A DNA stretch of 64,000 bases from Albifimbria verrucaria (Eukaryota; Ascomycota; Sordariomycetes; Hypocreales; Stachybotryaceae), in contig JAHREC010000018.1 of assembly GCA_020081605.1 (NCBI GenBank), forward strand, positions 6,324,001 through 6,388,000, given 5' to 3'. The translations under genes and the position numbers were made by a program. Below are positions 2,783-42,397 of the stretch, piece after piece; the first letter of the stretch is position 1; every line of letters begins with the position of its first letter. Under the pieces are notes generated by a model. The model did no database searches, was not told the origin of the DNA, and worked only from the letters and a program-made list of their open reading frames with translations.

Positions 2783-4442
2783 CTACTTTTGTGGGAGATC
2801 TGCTCCGATCTGGGTGAGCAGAGGAGCAATGTCGATGTCGTGTGTGTAGCATTCTCTCTCAATAATCTCCCGCGCCTTTTGATCCCGTGGCTTGATCGAA
2901 GTCGTGAATGGCATTGCTCTCATAACGAGACCATCTGTGGAATTCACCCAGTCCACGTCAGTCGGCTCTCCTGTCTCTGACAGACCAGCTTTGATGTCGA
3001 ATGCCCACAGCAGGCGAGCCATCGAAATCCATAGCCCATTGCGAGCAAAATGTCGGCCTGGGCATAGACGTCTTCCATATCCGAAACCTGCGACCGGAAG
3101 GTTTTGAGCTCTCCCGGAGAGTCTGGGTCAATCCAACGGTCTGGGATAAAAGATTCCGTGTCAGGACCAAAAGCTGCCTCCTCTCGCGAAATTGCCCAAT
3201 GATTAGCTATGACGACCGAGTTTGCAGGGATTGTGTATCCGCCATAGTTGCTCTCTGTTTTAGTGAAGTGCGGGACGCCGCCTGCCCCTGCTGGGCGCCA
3301 TCGGAGCACCTCTTCGAGGATGGCACTGACATATGGCAGATTGGGCTTATCTTCAAAGGTAGGCAAGCGATCGCGGCCTACAACCCTGTCCAATTCTTCT
3401 CGTGCCTTGGCAACAAAGCCCTTGTCTTGAGTGATGCAAGCAATCAAGAACCATATGATTGACTCCACAGTTCCGTCAAGGGCAGCGTCAAACATGGTTC
3501 CAAATTCGAACGCGAGTTCTTCAAACGGCATCGGAAGCTTTTCCTCTTCAACTGTGCCGTGCAACTGCTTCGCAAAAGTCCATCCTGGCTCTTTGAGACC
3601 GCGATTAAGGTTGGTGATGTGCAATGAACGTTGCCGTTGGTAGTGTGCTTCAGCCTTCGCCTTCCACGGTGCAAGAGGGGCAGGGAGGATGTTAAGCACC
3701 GGAAATGAGTCCACCAAGAACGCGCCGACTTGAACGAACTCGGAAAACTCCTCGTCGATAGTCAGCGCTTCCAACAGCTCAGGCGCTTTCTCACTTTTGA
3801 TGCGGTACCCGTAAAACAGGGCGAGGAGATTGCTGGCGGTTACGCGTTCCAAATGCCCACGGACATCACTTCCGGGTCCATCACCTGCTTTTAGCAAATC
3901 AAAGAGCAATTGCTTTGATTCTATCGACTGAAAGTCGCGGTACTTGGCCGACGCATTCTGATTGAGAACTGTGCTCTCAAGTTTTTGATGAAGTTTGAGG
4001 CGATCATCGTAATCCATCAGTAGCGTATTCATGTGTTTCAGAGCCAGTTCTTGAGCTACCTATATACAATATTTAGCTAAAACGTCACCCGAAGAAGGAT
4101 TCTTCGCTAGAATATACGAAAAACCACTTACAAACATCTTTGGACGGTCGGAAAAGGTAGCTCCTCGCTTTGCCAGAAGGTCATGGGCGGCTTGTGATGT
4201 GGACAGTACAATCACATGCTGCCCAAGCATGTTGAGATGAATCACAGGTCCATATTGCTTTCCCCATTCCGTGAACTGAAGCCACGCGTGTGACTTGGGT
4301 GCTTGATGGATATTGCCAATGACGGGAAGCGGAGGGGTCCAGGAGGAAGAGGTAGCGACGAGCCTGAGGATCGTCGAGTAATGAAGTACCAAATGAGAAG
4401 CCCCGCAACTCCAGCGCCTAGTAAGGAGGTAGCAGAAGACAT
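2783..4442 (-). CDS. Cytochrome P450 monooxygenase (two single-base frameshifts)
   Basis: Membrane-anchored microsomal P450 of about 529 residues. Exon 1 is 4132-4442 and exon 2 is 2783-4059, with a GT-AG intron at 4060-4131. In order: an N-terminal hydrophobic anchor followed by PLPPGP; the substrate-proximal motif GNIHQAPKSHAW; an I-helix region with DGT; the ExxR motif EEVLRWRP; a PxRW segment (PDRWIDPDSP); and the haem loop FGYGRRLCPGRHFA with its ligand cysteine. The proline-rich hinge and the next segment lie in different frames (break near 4324-4334), and the haem loop lies in another frame from ExxR (break in TTTT at 3102-3105). Each is repaired by adding one base. It resembles fungal P450s of secondary metabolism. 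It lies 3 kb from the tryptophanase-DMATS gene and could act on its product, but this is inference. Confidence 0.88.
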
Positions 4443-4975
4443 ATTGATCGTGCAGCTAAGAGAGGGCGCAGAGTCAGATCGGCGGTTTCCAGATGGCAGA
4501 GCATGAAAGCAGGAATCTTGCTGAATGTGCTACTGGAACCCGTGTGGGAAGGGTCCCTTTTGGTGCTGAGCATGGCAGGTTGGTCCAGTGTCCCAACTGA
4601 AGTTGTTCGGAATAACATGCAGCTTGAAGTTTAATAATAGATGCATATTCATACCGCGCGTATGGCCAAGCTGCATCCGCAGCTACTGCTGCAGGGTTGC
4701 GCCCGTGTGTAGCAGGTGGTGTGATGACTGCCTCCCCTACATGCAGGCATGTGGTCTGTGACCTGCAATCCATGCGTGCGTTTATGCACATTTGTGGGAG
4801 GTGAGGGGATATTACCGCTCTTGGCGAGATTCCTTCTGCCATTCATTCAATGTGCAAAAACTAACAGCCGTTCTAATGTACACGTCTCCCATCATTACCA
4901 AGAAGCGCGCATCTGGCCTTCTGTCTGTCTTGAACAACTCCACACACACACTAGTGCCCTCCTTTCCGAAGTCCC
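4443..4975. other. Intergenic between P450 start and receptor 3' end
   Basis: Upstream region of the P450. No gene or clear element seen. Confidence 0.5.
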
Positions 4976-7567: not shown

Positions 7568-10446
7568 ATGGCTTCCTTCGTTCAGTCCCCTTCCAAGTCC
7601 ACCCACACACCAAAGTGTGATAGTCCGGTCTCTACCAACTGTGACAGTTGAAGAGCGTGAGGCCATTCTCAAAGATGTGGAATACAACATATTCAACTTC
7701 CCGGCTGGGCTGCTCACGGTGGACTTCCTGACAGATTCCGGTACCTCAGCTATGACGGATTTGCAATGGACAGCCCGTAAGATCCCCTTTGCGTAGTTAC
7801 GGCCACATATCTATCTAGCCCGTGGCTTTTCCCAATTTGAAGCAGAACAGTTACTGACGCTTCTACCAAAAGTAATGAGAGGTGATGAAAGCTATGGTCG
7901 CAATTGGGGTTACTTCTGCATTCTGGATGCCTTCCGGGACGTTTTTGAACGGGGCAGTGACCAGAAGCGTTTGTTCCATGCTGTCACTATGGGGACAGTA
8001 GATGCCAGCTTTTACCGCAAGGAGGTTCTCAAGCATTATGAGGGCGGCTTTGTCAATGGTGGTGTTCATCAACTAGAACGCCCCAACTTCTTTATTGTTC
8101 CTCAGGGACGGTGTGCTGAGACTTTGCTGTTCTCTTGTCTTGCAGATTCCATTACACGCAAAGGTGGCAACCCTGCCGAATCGACCATCATCAGTAACGG
8201 ATTCTTTGACACTACTGCTGCCAATGCATCCACCGCAGGGTTCAAACTCCAACCTTTTACGCAGCCAGGTCTGAGTGATCCCTTTCCGGCCGAACTGATT
8301 GGCAAGGAAAATCCATTCAAGGGGAACCTCGATATTGTTGCAACCAAGGATTTCCTTGATAAGAACGATCATGTCACCATGATTCTTATCACAATTACCA
8401 ACAATTGGGCTGCCGGGCAACCAGTTTCCATGGCGAATATCCGTGACGCAGCAGCACTCGCAAAGAGCAACGACATCCCTCTATTCTTTGATGCATGCCG
8501 CTTTGCAGAGAATGCATTTTTATCCACAAGTATGAAAAGGGGTTTTCCGAGAAGACAATTCCAGAAATTGTTCAAGAAATGTTCTCTTGTGTTGATGGAT
8601 TCACGATTAGCCTGAAGAAAGATGCTCTTGCCAATATTGAGGGTGTGTTGTGCTTCAAGGACAAAAGCTTATTTGCTTCTCGATATGAGGAAATCGGACT
8701 CAGCATTAAACAACGCCAGCTAATCAGCTATGGAAATGACGCTTATGGCGGTAGTAAGTTGCTCTCTTCCATTAATCCCCAATATCTTGTAGTCCTTCAA
8801 AATGCTGACTTATATCTAGTGAGTGGCCGTGACCTGATGGCAGCTACAGCTGGTCTTTATGAAAACACCAAGCTGTCTTTCTTGCAGCATAGAATTGGAC
8901 AAGTCCAGTCATTCGCTACCAAGCTTAATGAAAATGGCATTGATGTTCTCTCGCCACCAGGGGACACGCCGTCTATCTTGACATGGACAAGTTCTTCCAT
9001 GGCTGTGACAGAAAGCCGGAGGATTTTGCCTCTGTGGGTTTCACACTGGAGCTAATAAAAGAATTCGGTATTCGCTCTGCGGAGTCAGGCCCATTTGCGT
9101 GGGAGGCAGACAAGAAGACTCCCGAGGAGCAGTCCAAGATTCCCAATCTCGTACGGTTCGCCGTGCCGCGCAATGTATTTTCTGATGAGCATATAGACTA
9201 TTCTGTTGCTTCAATCAAAGAACTTCACAAAAGAAGGCACACAATCCCGAATGTAGTTATCACAAGAGGTAAAGACATGCGACTCCGCCATTTTGGAGCA
9301 GGAATGCAGCCTGTACCCCCGAAACATGTTAGGAGGTCATATTTAGACGAGTCGAGACGGCAATTGGAGCTTCTTTCCCAGGTAACTGGACAAGATGAAA
9401 AGCTGAAGAAACAATTACTTGACGCCCTAACAGTGGGTATGGGAAAATGGGGTCATGGTCTGATACCTGAGAAGTTAGACAGATCTGGCTGGCTATCTAA
9501 CCTCAGCAACGACCATTCGCCTATTGAATTCTCAATGGCTTTGGACCAGAAGACGGGAGAGTCAGAATTACGATTCATGTTGGAAGCTCAGTCAACCGAG
9601 AACAATATCGCAAAGCTCCAAGAAAGCGCTTTGCAATTGAACCAAGATATCACAGCAAAGTACGGCGATATGGTCTCATTCGACCGGTTCGACGTTATTC
9701 GTGACCTATTCATGCCACCCGGAGCCGATAAAAGACTGGCTGCATGGCACAGCTTCGCCATCTCCAAAGGTTTGGAGAAATGGAAGCTGTACTTGAATCC
9801 CTTCGCTTCAGGAGAGGATAAAGCATCGGCGGTGACACAAGAGACCCTTAGCCGCCTCGGTTATGATGGAGCATGGGATATTTTGAAAAGCATCATGTCA
9901 ACTCATGATTACATTGTGTACATTGGACTCGGATGCTTCCCTAATTCCGGCGATTCGGAGATGAAAGTATACATTGCGCACCCTAATGCTACGTCTTCCC
10001 AGATAGCTCGGAAGCATGTAGAAATCTGCCCGGAGGCCTCAACTTACGAGATTGAGCAGTTTCTTATCACACTCTCTGGACAATCAACGGGGCCTTACAT
10101 CCGGAAACCGGTGTTGACCACCCTTGCTTTCAAGCAGAAAGATATAAAGAACCCGATTCGCACAGTTCACTTCCCCATTGACAGTTATGTAACCAACGAC
10201 GCCGAGGCCCAGGATCGCATCGAACACTACATGGATTTGATATCAGCGCCTGTCACCTACCGTGAGAAATATAGGAGAGCTGTCGCAACAGTTCAGCGGA
10301 GACCTCTAGCTTCTGGGCGTGGTATTCACAGCTGGGTGAGCTTGAAACGTAAACTCGGTCCCAAAGGAAGAGTGACAAATACGTTCTACCTGTCACCGGA
10401 ATTCTATGGACCACTTGAAGCCCCAAAGACCAATGGAATTAAGTGA
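7568..10446 (+). CDS. Tryptophanase (PLP beta-eliminating lyase) - DMATS-type prenyltransferase fusion
   Basis: Predicted bifunctional enzyme of about 906 residues. Exons are 7568-7776, 7873-8753 and 8820-10446. The first half follows tryptophanase/tyrosine phenol-lyase: LLTVDFLTDSGTSAMTD, ALMRGDESYGRNWGYF across intron 1, FFDACRFAEN, the PLP-lysine segment TISLKKDALANI (KK codons at 8615-8620), NDAYGGMSGRD across intron 2, and LRHFGAG as the family's C-terminal end near 9290. After a short linker the same frame continues into a DMATS domain: SNDHSPIEFS, KWKLYLNPF, MKVYIAHP, and the typical end HSWVSLKRKLGP then TNTFYLSPEFYG. The junction lies in a 487-codon frame (8983-10446) with no break, so the fusion needs no repair. 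Elsewhere one base is missing at 8517-8521 (T run) and 8960-8963 (G run), and probably two in exon 1 (7587-7590 and near 7605); the ATG at 7568 is therefore tentative. Expected chemistry: tryptophan to indole, pyruvate and ammonia, then dimethylallylation of indole or tryptophan. Confidence 0.88.
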
Positions 10447-16649: not shown

Positions 16650-17892
16650 ATGGCCCCATCAGCTACTGAGCCAGTGATTAATGTAAAGTCCGATCGACCA
16701 CAGCCACTTAAGCTATCAGGGGCTCTCAATGATTACGAAGCATTTGATGTAACTCCAGTCATTGGTCGCGAGTTCCCGAAAGCCAATCTCGTCGACTGGT
16801 TGAGTGCCGACAACGCAGATGAGCTGATACGTGACTTGGCCATTACGAGTGCGTCGTAGCAAGCACATTTCTAACAGCAATTGCTGACGAGGATCATAGT
16901 TTCCCAGCGTGGAGTTGTCTTCTTCCGTGCCCAGGATAATCTTACAAATGAGCTACAGAAGAAGTTGATTCGCCGCCTCGGCGAGTTGACAGGCCGCCCA
17001 GCATCATCTGGTCTTCATATACACCCCATCCTGAATTCGGAGCGCGAGTTGGGCGGCGACGATCTCGAGATTAGTACCATTAGCTCAAAACAGCACAAGA
17101 AATTGTACACGCGTGATGAAGTTGACGGTGTTGTTACTGGGCGACATGAGAGCAAGGAAATATGGCATTCAGATATTGCGTTCGAGCCTTATCCTGCCGA
17201 CTATACTTCTCTTCGCTTAACTGAGCTCCCAAAGACGGGAGGAGGTAAGAATTTTCCAACCCAAATTTTTTTGACTCCATGGCTGATATTGTGTCAGATA
17301 CATTGTGGGCGTCAGGTTATGACATATATGATCAATTGAGCCCAGCATATCAGAAGTTTCTCGAAACCCTGAACGCTACATTTCACCAGCCAAATTTCGC
17401 TAAAGCTGCAGAGAAAAACGGCTTTAAGCTCTATGATCAGCCTCGCGGCTCGCCAGAGAATATCGGGTCTGAGCTTAAAGCAATTCACCCTGTGATCCGA
17501 ACGAATCCAGTCACAGGCTGGAAGAGTGTCTTTCCTATCGGTGCACACGTTGGACATATCAACGGGGTGACCAAAACGGAGAGTGATCATTTACTCAAAT
17601 GGTTTTATGATCTTGCCAAGGACCACGTCGTTCAGGTTCGACTGAAGTGGCAAAATCCAAATGATATCGGTTAGTTGCCTATTAGGAGAGTGCACTGAAC
17701 TCTGCTAACTCGGATTTTGTTCTAGCGATATGGGATAATCGCAGTGTCTTCCACACTGCTACTTTTGATTACCTTCACATCGGTGATCGATTTGGTGTGC
17801 GAGTCGTCGGCATTGGTGAACGGCCATACCTTGATCCCAATAGTAAATCGAAGGCCGAAAGTCAGGACCCTCCTACCACTGAATCAGATTAG
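16650..17892 (+). CDS. TauD/TfdA-type Fe(II)/2-oxoglutarate dioxygenase
   Basis: Intact 360-residue enzyme. Exons are 16650-16848, 16900-17244, 17298-17669 and 17726-17892; all introns are short (51-56 bp) and GT-AG. The iron-binding HxD is in WHSDIAFEPYPADYTSLR. The distal part holds the third ligand, IWDNRSVFHTATFDY, followed by the 2-oxoglutarate-binding arginine region and the end GIGERPYLD typical of fungal TauD homologues. Family members cleave taurine or alkylsulphonates, degrade chlorophenoxy acids, or hydroxylate secondary metabolites, all with 2-oxoglutarate decarboxylation. The sequence does not tell which. The neighbouring divergent transporter would fit uptake and use of an organic acid or sulphonate; a tailoring role next to the prenyltransferase is an alternative. 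Confidence 0.93.
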
Positions 17893-18549: not shown

Positions 18550-19949
18550 CTAGGCATAAATATAGCAAAATGGCGCACCACCCAGTGTGTTTAACGCGTC
18601 CTTGATGTTAATGATAGGAGCATTCACACCGAGGTCTAGGGGTCTGTCTTGAGAGCATCGCGGCTCGGAGGCTGGTTAAGAATCGTAATGGTGCCTGCAA
18701 TGTCAAATGCCTTGGGGAGGTGGAGGGCCTGCCAGATCCAGTATAGACGATCGACCATGGAATGGTGAAGGAAGAAGGAAGGGTCAGTTGGCGAGGAAAG
18801 AGATCGGTCGCGTCACCTCCAGCCGTGAAGTGGCCTGCGGCATGCATACCCAAGAAACCATCACTAAAGCGTCCCTGGAACTCATCCTGGAACAGCTTGA
18901 TAGAACCAGAAGCGTCACCGAGAGTGACGTTGAACAAGTTGGCAGTAGTCATCCAAGTCTTTGTGGCATACGAGGTGAGATCGCGACGAAGGCATCTCGG
19001 GTTATGGGCCATAGGACCATTGGGATTTGGTAAGAGCCCATCCATCCCAGGTGCTAAAGGACCAAGGTTGACGACCATACTACAACGGTGAGCGATTAGT
19101 TTGTGCAGAGAATACAATCAGAGGGAATTACTTACTCCTTGAAAGGGCCACTCTTAACGCAACCACCACCTTTGCCAGAGGGCAAGAAAATATTGTTCGA
19201 ACCGGAGAGACTGCCATTATGCGCAACAAACTCTCCGTCACCACTCATGCTGGTGTCACTGCCATCGTAGACTGGTGACTTGGATATGTCATCCTGATGA
19301 GCAAAGTAGTTCCAGTACTACACCACAAAATGTCAGCTTCCTCGTGTCAATAGGCCGAAAAACTGTACATACAGGCTGAGTGCCCCGATAGCCACATTCG
19401 GTTTGGAGCGCATTCTCATAAGCCCAGGTAAAGTATCGATGCCATGTCAAGAAATTACCCTGTACAAGTTCGTTAAATCCTATCCATTTACACTTGGAGG
19501 AGATCGTCTTACGGTCCCATGAATTTCCAGGGTCTTGTTAATGTGGATGGCAACAAAGTCATCGTACCTCGTACGAGCACCAGGAGCAAAAGCTGGGTCC
19601 GATTTTGATGGCAACTTCTGGAGGCACTGGACAGCCTTGATGTACGACTTGCGCTCATTGGCACTCAATGCAGCCCTAACATGGGAACACTACCGTCAGC
19701 TAAATCTTGAACTCGAATGAATGTCCAGGTATGCTCACCAATCCTTACGAATGCGAGCATTAGCCAGTGAGCAGGCACGCTTTCCAACATTACCATCGCC
19801 CGTAGAGGCTTCTAAAGAATCAATCGCCTGCTGCTGGAGGTTTGAAAGCAAAGTTAGAGCATCCTCGTCTGCACGAAGCTGCAGAGGGCTTGCACTGGTA
19901 ACACTAGCGAACAAAAGCCCGAGGGGACGACGAAGCGAGGGAGCTGCAT
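18550..19949 (-). CDS. Secreted tyrosinase/catechol oxidase A (three single-base frameshifts)
   Basis: Type-3 copper oxidase that hydroxylates phenols or oxidises catechols. The start at 19949 gives a signal peptide (MQLPRFVVP, then LLFASVTSA). CuA histidines sit in FVAIHINKTLEIHG and FLTWHRYFTWAYENAL; CuB in GMHAAGHFTAGGD and FFLHHSMVDRLYWIWQ; the mature end is PFCYIYA. GT-AG introns split the CuA region and the central part. One base is missing in CCCC at 19923-19926 (signal peptide), near 18796 (before the second CuB part) and in CCCC at 18639-18642 (near the end). All catalytic histidines are present once the frame is followed, so an active enzyme is likely if these are assembly errors. 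It differs clearly from the second tyrosinase at 30181. Confidence 0.88.
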
Positions 19950-29700: not shown

Positions 29701-30180
29701 AGAGCAAAACAAGCCCTGGCCAACTCTGGGACGGGAAAGATGGGGCGAGTAGGAGGCTTTTTAAGGGGCTGTCTTCTCAACACGAACTGCTAATAGAATA
29801 GAAGGGACGTCCCGGGGTCCCCGTGTGGCTGCAGGGCGGCTTGCATAAACGGGGCAATGACGATACAGCAGCAATTAAGGTGCTGTGCAGTCCAGGTACC
29901 CGCGAGTGTCGCTGAAATTACCCCATAATTATATATTGTTCTGGAAGAGCTCCAAGGACAGGATCCATCTCCAGACAGGCACCTCAGCTCGTAGGGCAAT
30001 ATATATAATGCGGAGGCTGTTGTCACATTGTTAAGGTTCTTGGTTTCCTCCACCACCCTCGTTCACCAGCTTTTGAGCAGTTGTTCCAAATTCATCGCCA
30101 CAGTCATTGCATCTTGGCTTGAATCGTCCTTCGTTATAAACAACTTGCTTGCCTTTCTTTCAGCATTTAACTCTTTCATA
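26785..30180. other. Gene-poor intergenic stretch, 3.4 kb
   Basis: The largest gap of the window. No frame longer than about 105 codons, no paired repeats and no transposon motif that I could recognise. The right end should hold the promoter of tyrosinase B, where TATATATAA lies near 30000. Confidence 0.5.
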
Positions 30181-31318
30181 ATGTTGTCCCGATCGATACT
30201 TACCGTCCTCTCTCTCGTGGCTGCCGCCGCCACGAGTGCAATTCCTCGTGCCGATAATGCCTGTACTAGCCCGGTCGTACGGAAGGAGTGGCGCGAGTTG
30301 ACCGACACGGAAAAGGCTGAATACATCCGTGCAGCCGTTTGTCTACGCGGCCTGCCCAAGGCGAAGTATGCTTATCTCGATGCTGTCACCACACGCATGG
30401 ATGATTTGGTATACACCCACTTTGCTCTCAACGAAGACATCCACTTTGTAGCCAACTTCCTCCCGTGGCACCGTTGGTTCGTGAAGCTACATGAAGATCT
30501 GCTTCGCGACGAATGTGGTTTCACCGGTACTCAGCCGTACTGGGATTGGAGTATCGATGCCGACAAGCAGGATATGCCCAACTCACCCATTTTCGACCCC
30601 GTCACCGGCTTCGGTGGTGACGGCAAGCGCACCAACAACACCGAGCCTGGTTTCCAGCGCTGTGTCATTGATGGACCATTTGCCAACACAAATCTCACAC
30701 TAGCTATGGGTTGGCCTGACATGAACGTCCGTGGCGATCGCTTGCATTGTTTCACACGCGAATTCAATGGCGGTTTAGGCCTTGATGAAAATGGCGAGAC
30801 CATCATCGGTGACATGCAGGTTACAGCCTATAACTCCAAAGTCATGAACACAATCTATGCCTTCGACAACTTCCCCAACATGGTCGAGATGCTTGAAGGA
30901 TTGCCGCACGCACAGAGTTTGTCACCCACTAGCTTGCTTGCCTATTCTAGCAGAGATGTTAACATGGAATGCAGTTCACAGCGTCATCTTCGGTGACATG
31001 GGCCCTGCTACCTCGCCCAATGAGCCGCTATTTTTCCTGCACCACGCCAACGTTGACCGTGCTTGGGCAAAGGTACGCCTTCCCTCGGCCACACCATACA
31101 GTCGAAACATAGAAGATTGCTAACATTCACGATAGTGGCAAGGGCGCAATGCCACACGCCTGGTTGACTACGCCGGCTTCCGAGACCGCGCCGATACTAT
31201 TCCTGCCTCGATCACTGACACCATGCCCATTTTGGAACTTGGTGAAGTTGAGCCAATTGTCAAGGATTACATGGATATTCAAGCTGGTCCTTTGTGCTAC
31301 ACCTATTCATCAATGTAA
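30181..31318 (+). CDS. Secreted tyrosinase/catechol oxidase B
   Basis: Intact 338-residue type-3 copper enzyme. Exons are 30181-30916, 30975-31072 and 31136-31318, with introns of 58 and 63 bp (branch sites gttaac and gctaac). The first 20 residues form a signal peptide (MLSRSILTVLSLVAAAATSA). CuA: YTHFALNEDIHFVANF and LPWHRWFVKLHEDLL. CuB: GLPHAQIHSVIFGDM across intron 1, and SPNEPLFFLHHANVDRAWAK. The end is GPLCYTYSSM. I chose the ATG at 30181 because it opens the signal peptide; an upstream non-ATG extension is not supported. The layout is that of the short secreted fungal tyrosinases used in melanin formation, phenol oxidation or tailoring of secondary metabolites. No frameshift. Confidence 0.94.
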
Positions 31319-38739: not shown

Positions 38740-40601
38740 ATTTCTGGATTTCTTGGAGATATTTGTAGAGGTGCGGCGAGGAAAAATGACAGAGGTTTTT
38801 TGAACTCTAAGCAGCTGGGATCTTGCAGGTAAAGATTCAGGTGGCTAATGATGGCGGCAGCGGCAAATGCGAGTTATTATACGGGCTTGGAGAGGCTGTG
38901 TTGAGACGGCATAGTTCAAGCAGGAATTGTTGGTTGATGACACTCTTGCACATCAAACATGTAATTAGAATGCCTGCGCCTTCCGATGTCATTTAAAAAA
39001 ACATTAGAAAGCAAATCCCGCGTTGGCTGCATGTTGTTGGTTGAATGACGCCCCTCGGTTGGCCCCCATGACAGCGTTTCGCATGCTCGAGTTGGGTAGT
39101 GTTGCTGCTAACATATGCTTACGCCAGGCAAAGGAGAAATTTTCATAGCCAGCATGCTAATTATAGAACCAACGAGTAGGTCTCATCAAGGGGCTTGGAA
39201 AGAAGGACATGGCCAAGCCAGGACAACGCTGCAGCACCCTCCCGCCATTAAGGGTGGTATCATTGATCACGACCAATCATTGCGAGCTATTTTTGCGCCC
39301 CAACACCTGTATTGAATTGACGTGGGCAGCAGCAAGCTGACTTTTGAGGCTACGCCTTCTTTGTGAACGACATTGCAGCTTTGCGACTTGCGCATGTGGT
39401 TAGGCAATGAGGCATGCAAGCAAGAGCAGTTGGCCTCCAAGCAATTGAGTCTATTGTGTGAAAACACCATACAATCTGGAACTAGATGGCTGCACAAGAC
39501 GTAGGATTGGAAGTGGGTTCTAAGCGACTTGCAGTACAAGCGCAGGTGACAGTCATCGTGGAAGCATTCCCTAGTCCTCGCAAGGCAATACCATAACTGG
39601 GTGATGGAGAAGGGCACCCCTGCTCCTTGGACTCGTGCGCAAATATACTGTGAGTTATACCAAAAGTTATCCTAATGAGGGCCCTTGGAATTACCAACTA
39701 TGAATGACTCTATGATATCAGAGAACAGATCACGAGTTCATGTTCCTTTCAAGTTGACTAGTCAAATACCCGAGGAACACATCACGAAGATTTAATCTTC
39801 AATCTGGAAAAAGAGAAAACAGCATGGGAACGTATCCGATGACAATCAAGTTTCGATGCACGGCCTTTCGTCTAATCGTAGCGCCTTGAACCCTGCGACC
39901 TTGAGGACTTACAGGCAGTCCAAGTCGTAAAATTCAAGTGACAAGAGAAATAATATATCTAACACGAGATCATTTTTAGTTTCGGCAGGTTCGTGATGAG
40001 ATAACTACTTCAAAGTCAGTGCAAACTCTGGGTCATTACCATGATGTACCATTAATGTAGATACACATTGTTACACTAGAAATTACCCAAGACTGATTTG
40101 GTCATCAATTGAGTACTTCGTATAGTTCTTATATTATCAGTTGACTCCTTTTAAGCCAAGCGATTCTACCCTACTGCTATAATATTTTCTCTCCAACACT
40201 TCCCGCAGGAATTCCCCAACCAGCATGATATTGTGTAAGTTACCCCTCCTGGTATTCCGGGCTATTAAACATCTCTATGTGAAGCTTTTACTTCTCCACA
40301 ATGCCGATCTCTTCCCTTAATGTTGATCTTTGATGCAGTTCCTTACCCTCGGAAGCCCCTAGGCCGTTGCGGAGTTCTGAGCCTGTATTTCCACCAAACA
40401 GAGTCACCCTGGTCGTAACATACCACGCAGATCCTCGACCAGGGTTCTCAATATGCATAAGGAATAGGAAATGATACCACCAGAGCTCCGAATTAGTAGG
40501 GTTAGATAGAAATAGTTTAAGAAGGCCGGCCAATTCTCTCTCAACTAAATGAGCTCGTTAGACAAGAGTATACACAGCCCTGGGTGAGCGAGCTTGCGAA
40601 A
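38740..40601. other. Divergent promoter region of the 7-TM gene (-) and GH5 (+), 1.9 kb
   Basis: No gene seen on either strand; reading frames are short and featureless. Confidence 0.5.
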
Positions 40602-42397
40602 ATGAGGTCCCGTCCCATGCTAGCAGTGACATTTCTCACGATTTCAACCCTCGTCGTTGCTGCTCCTACCACTTCAGGGAATCATGTTTTGAGACGCGCC
40701 CAAGTTCAGTGCAACGGCACATTCGAAGACATATCCGCAGCCGATTACATCGAAGCTGTCAATCCTGGGTGGAATCTGGGAAACACACTTGATGCAATTC
40801 CCGATGAGGGTTCATGGAACAATCCACCAGTCGTGGCTGCTACTTTCGATGCCATCAAGGCTGCCGGCTTCCGTAGCGTTCGCATTCCTGTCACTTACAC
40901 TCACCATTTCCTTTCAGAAGCGCCCGATTACCAAGTGGACCCCGCTTGGCTACAGCGAGTTGACGATGTAATCAATATGGCACTTGAACGGGATCTGTAC
41001 GTCGTGACAAATGTCCATCACGACTCGTGGGAGTGGGCAGACGTATCAAAGGAGGGTGCTGACATCCCTGCCATCAATGAAAAGTTTGAGAAATTATGGG
41101 TTCAAATTGCTACAAAGCTTGCATGTAAACCATCTCTTGTGGCTTTCGAGAGCATCAACGAACCTCCAGCCACGACTGCCGAGCATGGCGCCGCGATCAA
41201 CGAGCTCAATTCCATTTTCCTCAAGGCACTCGAGGCGACGGGTGGCTTCAATACTAAGCGTGTGGTAACCTTGTCAGGTGGAAACCAGGACGCTACAAAG
41301 ACCTCCCAGTGGTTTAAACCTCCTGCAGATATCGCCAATCCCTGGGCTCTGCAGTTCCACTACTACAGCCCGTATGACTTTACCTTCTCTGCCTGGGGAA
41401 AAACAACCTGGGGTTCGGAAGCAGACAAGAGTGCTGTGGAGGCAGAGATGGGCCTTGTGAGAGGCAACTTCTCAGATGTCCCACTCTATATTGGCGAGTT
41501 TAACACTCCCCATTCCATACAGAGAATGCAGCTAGGTGGCGCTGGTTCGATCATGTGATTCGCACCGCGAACGATATTGGTGCTGCCGTTGTCGTCTGGG
41601 ACAATGGTTTAGATCATCTCGATCGTGAAGCACGTACATGGCGCGATCCAACAACGCTTGAAATTCTGCAGAATGCAGTCGCGGGCACTACCAACTCTTT
41701 ACCTGATAGCACCGTCGATAATTCGGCACTGGAGCAGGCTAGTTCGGCGTACATTTTCAATCGAGTTGGAGATACAGTCAAGGACTATGAGCTGCCGTGG
41801 CTCTTCAACGGAAATACCCTGGCTGAGGTTACTTATGATGAGAAAGTCCTTGCTTTAGATACGGACTATACCGTTTCTGATTCATCTATCACTTTCAAGT
41901 CGAGCTTTTTATCGACTATTTTCTCCACTGACTCTGCTCCTGGATCCAAGGGTCTCTTATCTTTATCCTTCTCTGCTGGTGTAGACATCCCTGTAGAGCT
42001 TGTGCAGTGGGACACACCTGTCCTTGAGAAGACAAGCTCCCAAGCAGTAGGCGGCGCCGACCTGTTGGTGCCATTGAAGTGGAATGGCTTGCCGAAGCTG
42101 GCAACGGTGAAGATCGTTCAAGAAGATGGAACATATCTTGTGGACGACTGGACTAGTGTTCTAGGACCGTTGCAACAAGCCAGAGGTGTAAGTGTGCCCT
42201 TCCTAAAAAGATTTTTTCACATTTCCTGACGATATTCGTAGACATACGACAGCCAGTGGAAGTTTGAGGGCGACAATGTGATTATCAAGGCAGCTGCAGT
42301 TGACCTCGTCATTGCTAACAACAAGGCTACTACTTTTACTTTTGAATTCTATCCACGTGTGGATGGTAACCATGCCAACTACACATTAAATGTTTGA
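40602..42397 (+). CDS. Secreted GH5 endoglucanase with C-terminal beta-sandwich module (one frameshift)
   Basis: Predicted 580-residue secreted beta-glycanase, most likely an endo-beta-1,4-glucanase. The start at 40602 gives a signal peptide (MRSRPMLAVTFLTISTLVVA). The GH5 barrel shows NPGWNLGNTLDA, RIPVTYTHHF, TNVHHDSWEW, the acid/base region FESINEPP, and the nucleophile region LYIGEFNTPHS, followed by VVVWDNGLDH. A C-terminal region of about 190 residues (from LPWLFNGNTLAEV to the stop) resembles the CBM_X2/Ig-like modules of bacterial-type GH5 enzymes. One intron at 42188-42241. A missing base at about 41511-41523 splits the barrel just after the nucleophile into two frames; adding it gives RWRWFDHVIRTANDIGA. 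Probably acts on cellulose or mixed-linkage glucan outside the cell. Confidence 0.9.

Follow-up and report, generated by a model that had tools for sequence, protein, structure and literature searches.

Among the closest described systems is a bacterial one. In Streptomyces, Type A gene clusters pair an IptA-type gene with a tryptophanase, and the available part of the report on these clusters gives 6-dimethylallylindole-3-carbaldehyde as the product of the Type A cluster of Streptomyces sp. SN-593, names 6-prenylindole as a likely intermediate of the two-gene pathway, and mentions that a P450 is also present in some actinomycete clusters (PMC3617294). According to the same part of that source, IptA puts the dimethylallyl group on C-6 of tryptophan itself, and several products were formed from indole-3-acetonitrile by SCO7467, a relative of IptA (PMC3617294). 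In the open-access full-text literature, outside of which most subscription papers lie, we found no eukaryotic prenylindole pathway. Here we describe a gene from Albifimbria verrucaria, located in a stretch of 64,000 nucleotides that was analyzed as a whole (hereafter the window), in which a tryptophanase and a DMATS-type prenyltransferase are joined in one protein. An earlier note on this DNA had drawn the parallel with tryptophanase plus IptA in Streptomyces, which holds for the Type A clusters as far as they are covered by the part of the report that was available (PMC3617294).

Materials and methods

Relatives of the gene were collected with two queries. The first was a 907-residue composite of the window gene, with an X at each frame change and with residues 9–21 taken from the wrong frame, for which 1516 matches were obtained among 8000 scored candidates and the best 120 of the 1516 were used. 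The second, the DMATS half, had at least 51 matches, and both queries together gave 160 distinct proteins (the matches listed, below). The tryptophanase tree comprised 43 rows. A first DMATS tree comprised 67 rows, and for the DMATS tree discussed below nine similar bacterial rows and the host classical DMATS were left out of these 67; the two host DMATS, on contigs C10 and C33, were judged classical by their PF11991 score. As a control, PF00118 (chaperonin) and PF00012 (HSP70) were searched in the same assembly, which resulted in 46 matched stretches (25.8 kb).

Results and discussion

Both domains in one reading frame

In an open reading frame at 8944–10446 on the + strand (stop to stop, 500 codons), the C-terminal third of a tryptophanase is joined to a DMATS-type prenyltransferase without a change of frame between the two. 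In a PDB sequence search, its residues 4–124 matched the C-terminus of the tryptophanase 8sl7 (1.2e−29) and its residues 139–489 the DMATS prenyltransferase 6zrx (3.3e−25), followed among the best matches of the DMATS half by 6zry, PriB (2.4e−24), and the 6-dimethylallyltryptophan synthase 7w8u (7.9e−23); 6zrx, 6zry, PriB, and 7w8u are presumably all bacterial enzymes. PF11991 reached 31.3 bits on 8944–10443, above the Pfam gathering score of 25, and 23.1 bits, just under that cut-off, on the same stretch in a six-frame search of the genome, while PF01212 was found in two frames upstream of 8944 (88.8 and 49.8 bits). The domain names given in the earlier note were borne out. The frame is unbroken from 8964 on, across the domain junction, and the frame changes are all located elsewhere. 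The fusion is real: the matches to 8sl7 and 6zrx lie in one frame, without a stop or frameshift between them, as had been claimed, and the interval originally proposed (8983–10446, 487 codons) is open, but it is only part of the frame of 500 codons.

The whole gene is on the + strand. Exon 1 (7568..7776) encodes the tryptophanase N-terminus, with 81% identity to residues 7–70 of the relative P0002, and its likely start is the ATG at 7568 (MASF..., as in P0004), which is out of frame with the matching stretch PPTHQSVIVRSL...DFLTDSGTSAM. A putative first intron (7777..7872, 96 nt, GT...AG), the removal of which yields ...WTALMRGDESYG... as in relatives, is followed by exon 2 (7873..8753), containing the tryptophanase core with the PLP-lysine codon (K270 equivalent, 8618–8620) and a frame change at the T run 8517–8522. 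After a putative second intron (8754..8819, 66 nt, GT...AG), which is read through in the unspliced ORF P0001, exon 3 encodes the C-terminal third of the tryptophanase (8820..9315), with a frame change at the G run 8961–8964 and the His463-equivalent codon (LRHFGAG) at 9289–9291, then the approximate interdomain linker (9316..9360), without a stop and with the frame kept, and finally the DMATS-type prenyltransferase domain up to the stop codon (9361..10446), with the motif NDHSPIEFS at 9508–9534.

Frame changes in the window copy

The frame changes at the T run and at the G run leave no room for an intron, a third one at around 7570–7600 is present only if translation starts from the ATG at 7568, and the frame changes sit beside short homopolymers. 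In the control genes, 11 frame changes were found that leave no space for an intron, 10 of them clean and one (C15:3572102 to 3571233) possibly an intron, and a single chaperonin-family gene on contig C8 (G000:C8:4817798-4819084) had three. At the control rate of 10 in 25.8 kb, 1.05 frame changes are expected in 2.72 kb, the probability of two or more being 0.28 and that of three or more 0.09. The relative P0001, situated on a 33.7 kb contig, is 99% identical to the window gene in both domains and is open from MRGDESYG to its end, with intron 2 read through. Given that chaperonin and HSP70 genes are broken alike and that P0001 is open in spite of its 99% identity, assembly errors are a likelier cause of the breaks in the window gene than decay, and since this assembly has many single-base indels, frame-based claims drawn from it need care.

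It is unlikely, although compatible with the other readings considered here, that the window copy is a recent pseudogene. Two or three frame changes would fit such a status, as would the E at composite residue 328, a short distance past the PLP lysine, at a position with a G in each of the 76 other fused rows (this E is as compatible with error as with decay). The genome also contains another relative, in a decayed state, on contig C41. On the other hand, other genes of the assembly are broken in the same way, for instance the C8 chaperonin-family gene with its three frame changes, and the C41 copy looks quite different, while the window copy is nearly the same as an open relative. RIP was rejected as a cause of the breaks, as the dinucleotide indices of the gene (0.60/1.42) are unremarkable in comparison with those of the window (0.72/1.31). 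The C41 relative itself (L058:2084-3329; G000:C41:4228083-4229328) covers the lyase and extends into the beginning of the DMATS half, with 30–39% identity over long matches and several stops.

Conservation within the fused family

Among the 160 matches listed, 77 cover each of the two domains by more than 60%, 21 consist of part of the lyase plus the DMATS half and 5 of the lyase plus part of DMATS, while 23 are lyase only and 34 DMATS half only. In the 77 fused proteins together with the window (n = 78), the spacer between the His463 column and the DHSP column has a median of 75 (interquartile 74–75, range 43–94), and the PLP lysine is kept in 78/78 rows and His463 in 67/78, the window having both; we take the K270 (PLP-binding lysine) and His463 columns to have the roles that they have in tryptophanase. 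His463 is absent from 11 of the 77 fused rows (nine V, one L, one gap) and an exact DHSP is found in 34 of the 77, and given this variation within the family not all members need do the same. The rows with V (P0060–P0062, P0064, P0070, P0073, P0081, P0082, and P0090) are mostly from Colletotrichum, and in these nine the substitution may perhaps reflect a change of lyase specificity.

Prenyltransferase half and proposed order of the reactions

By sequence comparison, the DMATS half is nearer to bacterial DMATS of the IptA/PriB kind than to the classical DMATS of its host. On C10 and C33, the host genome carries two further DMATS genes, which have PF11991 in common with the window gene but reach approximately 160 bits in the best stretch of each (vs. 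31.3 in the window, or 23.1 in six frames). In the 67-row tree, the one on C33 forms a very long branch, remote from both the fused and the bacterial rows. The closest bacterial DMATS among the matches listed is 31% identical to the DMATS half of the window and thus too far for its substrate or prenylation position to be transferred; the prenylation position cannot be read from the sequence. The cut-off of TIGR03429 (DMATS family aromatic prenyltransferase, 163.85) was missed by the window piece (74.6 bits) as well as by P0002 (56.4), P0066 (92.5), P0041 (109.7), and P0001 (71.5). In six DMATS rows, including the window, two from Streptomyces, one from Penicillium, and one from Aspergillus, 64 columns are invariant. 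Another kind of DMATS fusion, PF14518 with PF11991, was seen in the metagenome proteins P0171, P0173, P0174, and P0175, of which P0171 and P0174 group with bacterial DMATS in the phylogeny.

In the DMATS tree, rooted by choice between fungal and bacterial rows, the fungal and Riccia rows fall on one side and the bacterial rows on the other (100/100). Seven Penicillium/Aspergillus-type DMATS without an attached lyase are nested in the fused clade (12-row clade including the window, 100/99), and a tree grouping the other 27 rows without those seven was rejected (AU p 0.003), this group of 27 having been named after inspection of the tree and including P0161, which is without a lyase stretch. This nesting suggests that in those rows the lyase half was lost or became separated, and the DMATS half can therefore persist unattached, meaning without a lyase in the same protein. 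Three of the free-standing Penicillium/Aspergillus DMATS (P0122, P0124, and P0127) are 48–54% identical to the window and belong to the same clade, but have no tryptophanase half in the same protein.

We lean towards a single bifunctional protein in which a PLP-dependent tryptophanase and an IptA/PriB-like DMATS would make prenyl-tryptophan first and dimethylallylindole second. In a first step, the DMATS half would use DMAPP to dimethylallylate L-tryptophan on its indole ring, and in a second step the lyase half would split prenyl-tryptophan into dimethylallylindole, pyruvate, and ammonia. TnaA is a tetramer, and if the lyase half were tetrameric like TnaA, the assembly would bear four prenyltransferase domains. 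If true, the conversion of tryptophan and DMAPP to a prenylindole within one protein would be a handy biocatalyst. Prenylation first is favored because IptA acts on tryptophan and because DMATS occur unattached in the Penicillium group.

For the same reasons, i.e., the prenylation of tryptophan by IptA and the nesting of lyase-free DMATS in the fused clade, the order assumed in the earlier note, in which indole is freed and then prenylated, is probably reversed. That the lyase frees indole and the DMATS prenylates it, perhaps by direct hand-over, appears improbable to us: the constant spacer would suit the hand-over of a small volatile intermediate, and His463 is kept in most rows (67/78), but IptA acts on tryptophan, indole-3-acetonitrile was turned into several products by SCO7467 according to the available part of its report (PMC3617294), and the clade retains DMATS relatives to which no lyase is attached.

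Lyase half, its class and lineage

The tryptophanase subfamily cut-off of NF009709 (PRK13238), 285, was passed by P0002 (497.8), P0041 (468.7), P0066 (455.4), and P0001 (382.8), while the window fragment 8944–10443 alone scored 100.3, the cut-off being one for full-length proteins. P0002 missed the equivalog cut-offs of TnaA (TIGR02617, 294.8 of 825.8; NF053783, 334.5 of 750) and of tyrosine phenol-lyase (TIGR02618, 287.1 of 720.7). E. coli TnaA and 8sl7 have the PF01212 family and the PLP-lysine and His463 columns in common with the fused lyase, and the QGR and FDTT stretches of 8sl7, a longer tryptophanase, are found there as well. In contrast to the fused lyase, E. coli TnaA is not attached to a prenyltransferase; it has 471 residues vs. 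approximately 525 in the lyase half of P0002 (i.e., about 55 more), and P0002 does not reach the equivalog cut-off of TnaA.

In the tryptophanase tree, the fungal rows, Riccia, and some further rows form one clade (27 rows, 96/98; 28 rows, 100/99), which adjoins Promethearchaeota proteins. A 100/100 branch separates this clade from E. coli TnaA as well as from the tryptophanases encoded next to DMATS genes in bacteria. That the fused lyase descends from these bacterial neighbors of DMATS was rejected, as the two lie on opposite sides of this branch. When 16 genomes with bacterial DMATS loci were searched for a tryptophanase of the Promethearchaeota type, 6 gave a match, with long matches at most 37% identical and a single 42-residue piece at 50% identity.

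Alternatively, the lyase half could have another substrate or work in the synthetic direction, in which case the product would not be a dimethylallylindole. The scores of P0002 far under the equivalog cut-offs of both TnaA and tyrosine phenol-lyase, the lineage near Promethearchaeota proteins and across the 100/100 branch from E. coli TnaA, and the V at His463 in nine rows, mostly from Colletotrichum, point in this direction, but P0002 passes NF009709 well above 285 and the window keeps both the PLP lysine and His463, and we consider this reading distinctly unlikely.

A tryptophanase-like gene was found in 14 of 30 bacterial DMATS loci, some of the loci being short. In 12 of the 30, all actinobacterial, it is located directly downstream on the same strand, 33–115 positions past the end of the DMATS match, and in one Nostoc and one Myxococcales assembly it is upstream of the DMATS gene. 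The IptA and tryptophanase of Streptomyces SN-593 bring together the same two activities as the window gene, but as two separate neighboring genes instead of a single frame running through the junction, and the tryptophanases of the bacterial DMATS loci sampled here (the SN-593 cluster itself being outside the sample) belong to another lineage than the fused lyase. Since the tryptophanases of the bacterial pairs and of the fungal fusion come from different lineages, either the pairing has at least two origins or an exchange of the lyase took place. Neighboring genes in bacteria vs. a fusion in eukaryotes would, if this holds, be a clear convergence on the same pairing.

Distribution of the fusion

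Named fused members among the matches listed come from Stachybotrys, Monosporascus, Hypoxylon, Xylaria, Podospora, Lentithecium, Corynespora, Diaporthe, Colletotrichum, and Metarhizium, as well as from Mycena pura and Riccia sorocarpa, and the database names of fused proteins are "beta-eliminating lyase" or "tryptophanase". With 77 fused proteins across many genera, the fusion in the window is not unique; of the single fungal fusion protein put forward in the earlier note, the fusion and the fungal host stand, but it is not a one-off (77 of the 160 matches listed are fused). It is extremely improbable that two neighboring genes were joined by mistake in gene models, and this was rejected, since, even if many of the listed relatives are gene predictions, the raw window frame is unspliced and open across the junction, P0001 is open there too with a translated intron still inside, the spacer is constant, and the same fusion is present in distant lineages.

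No paper describing the fused enzyme was recognized in open-access full text, with most subscription papers lying outside, in agreement with the earlier note, which knew of no characterized fungal enzyme of this type; a paper on Aspergillus that mentions the words for both halves (PMC11355416) is, judging by the part available, unrelated to the fused enzyme. The family is a conserved fusion, bifunctional by prediction and apparently uncharacterized so far, and provides candidate genes for prenylindoles, with intact homologues in named fungi, for example PODANS_4_1090 of Podospora anserina and P0002 of Stachybotrys elegans.

Riccia is a liverwort, and the available part of a review states that 6-prenylindole was first reported from a liverwort (PMC4491368). 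In Riccia sorocarpa, the fused protein P0041 is encoded on a 31.9 Mb contig, and P0084 (lyase only) and P0161 (DMATS with no recognizable lyase stretch) on one contig of 52.3 Mb, contig sizes which make fungal contamination unlikely. The Riccia loci of interest are R1sor_026645, R1sor_001468, and R1sor_001882. In the open-access full text, nothing was found on horizontal gene transfer in Riccia sorocarpa and nothing beyond a broad review on liverwort tryptophanase. A tentative scenario, possible rather than probable in our opinion, is that a Promethearchaeota-related tryptophanase and a bacterial-type DMATS became fused once, long ago, either within fungi or before entering them, and that horizontal transfer then carried this fusion from one fungal phylum to another and to liverworts, where it would make the known prenylindoles, while bacteria separately paired a different tryptophanase with DMATS. 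The fused Riccia gene is a directly testable candidate for liverwort prenylindole.

Genomic surroundings

Pfam matches of 20 other ORFs in the window (P450, CAP, TauD, tyrosinase, hydrolase, cellulase, aminotransferase, and transporter) revealed no convincing biosynthetic cluster around the fused gene. A cytochrome P450 (PF00067) at 2944..4455 on the − strand, divergent and approximately 3.1 kb upstream, is a possible partner. On the other side, Pfam indicated a CAP protein at 12 kb and a TauD dioxygenase at 16.9–17.7 kb, with tyrosinase pieces beyond; the tyrosinase-domain stretches are two separate ones, at 18611–19117 and 29995–30993. The TauD dioxygenase (16875–17674) lies in two frames about 50 bases apart, corresponding to a short intron or an indel, and a GH5 cellulase with CBM_X2 (40521–42229) in two overlapping frames with, by eye, no room for an intron.
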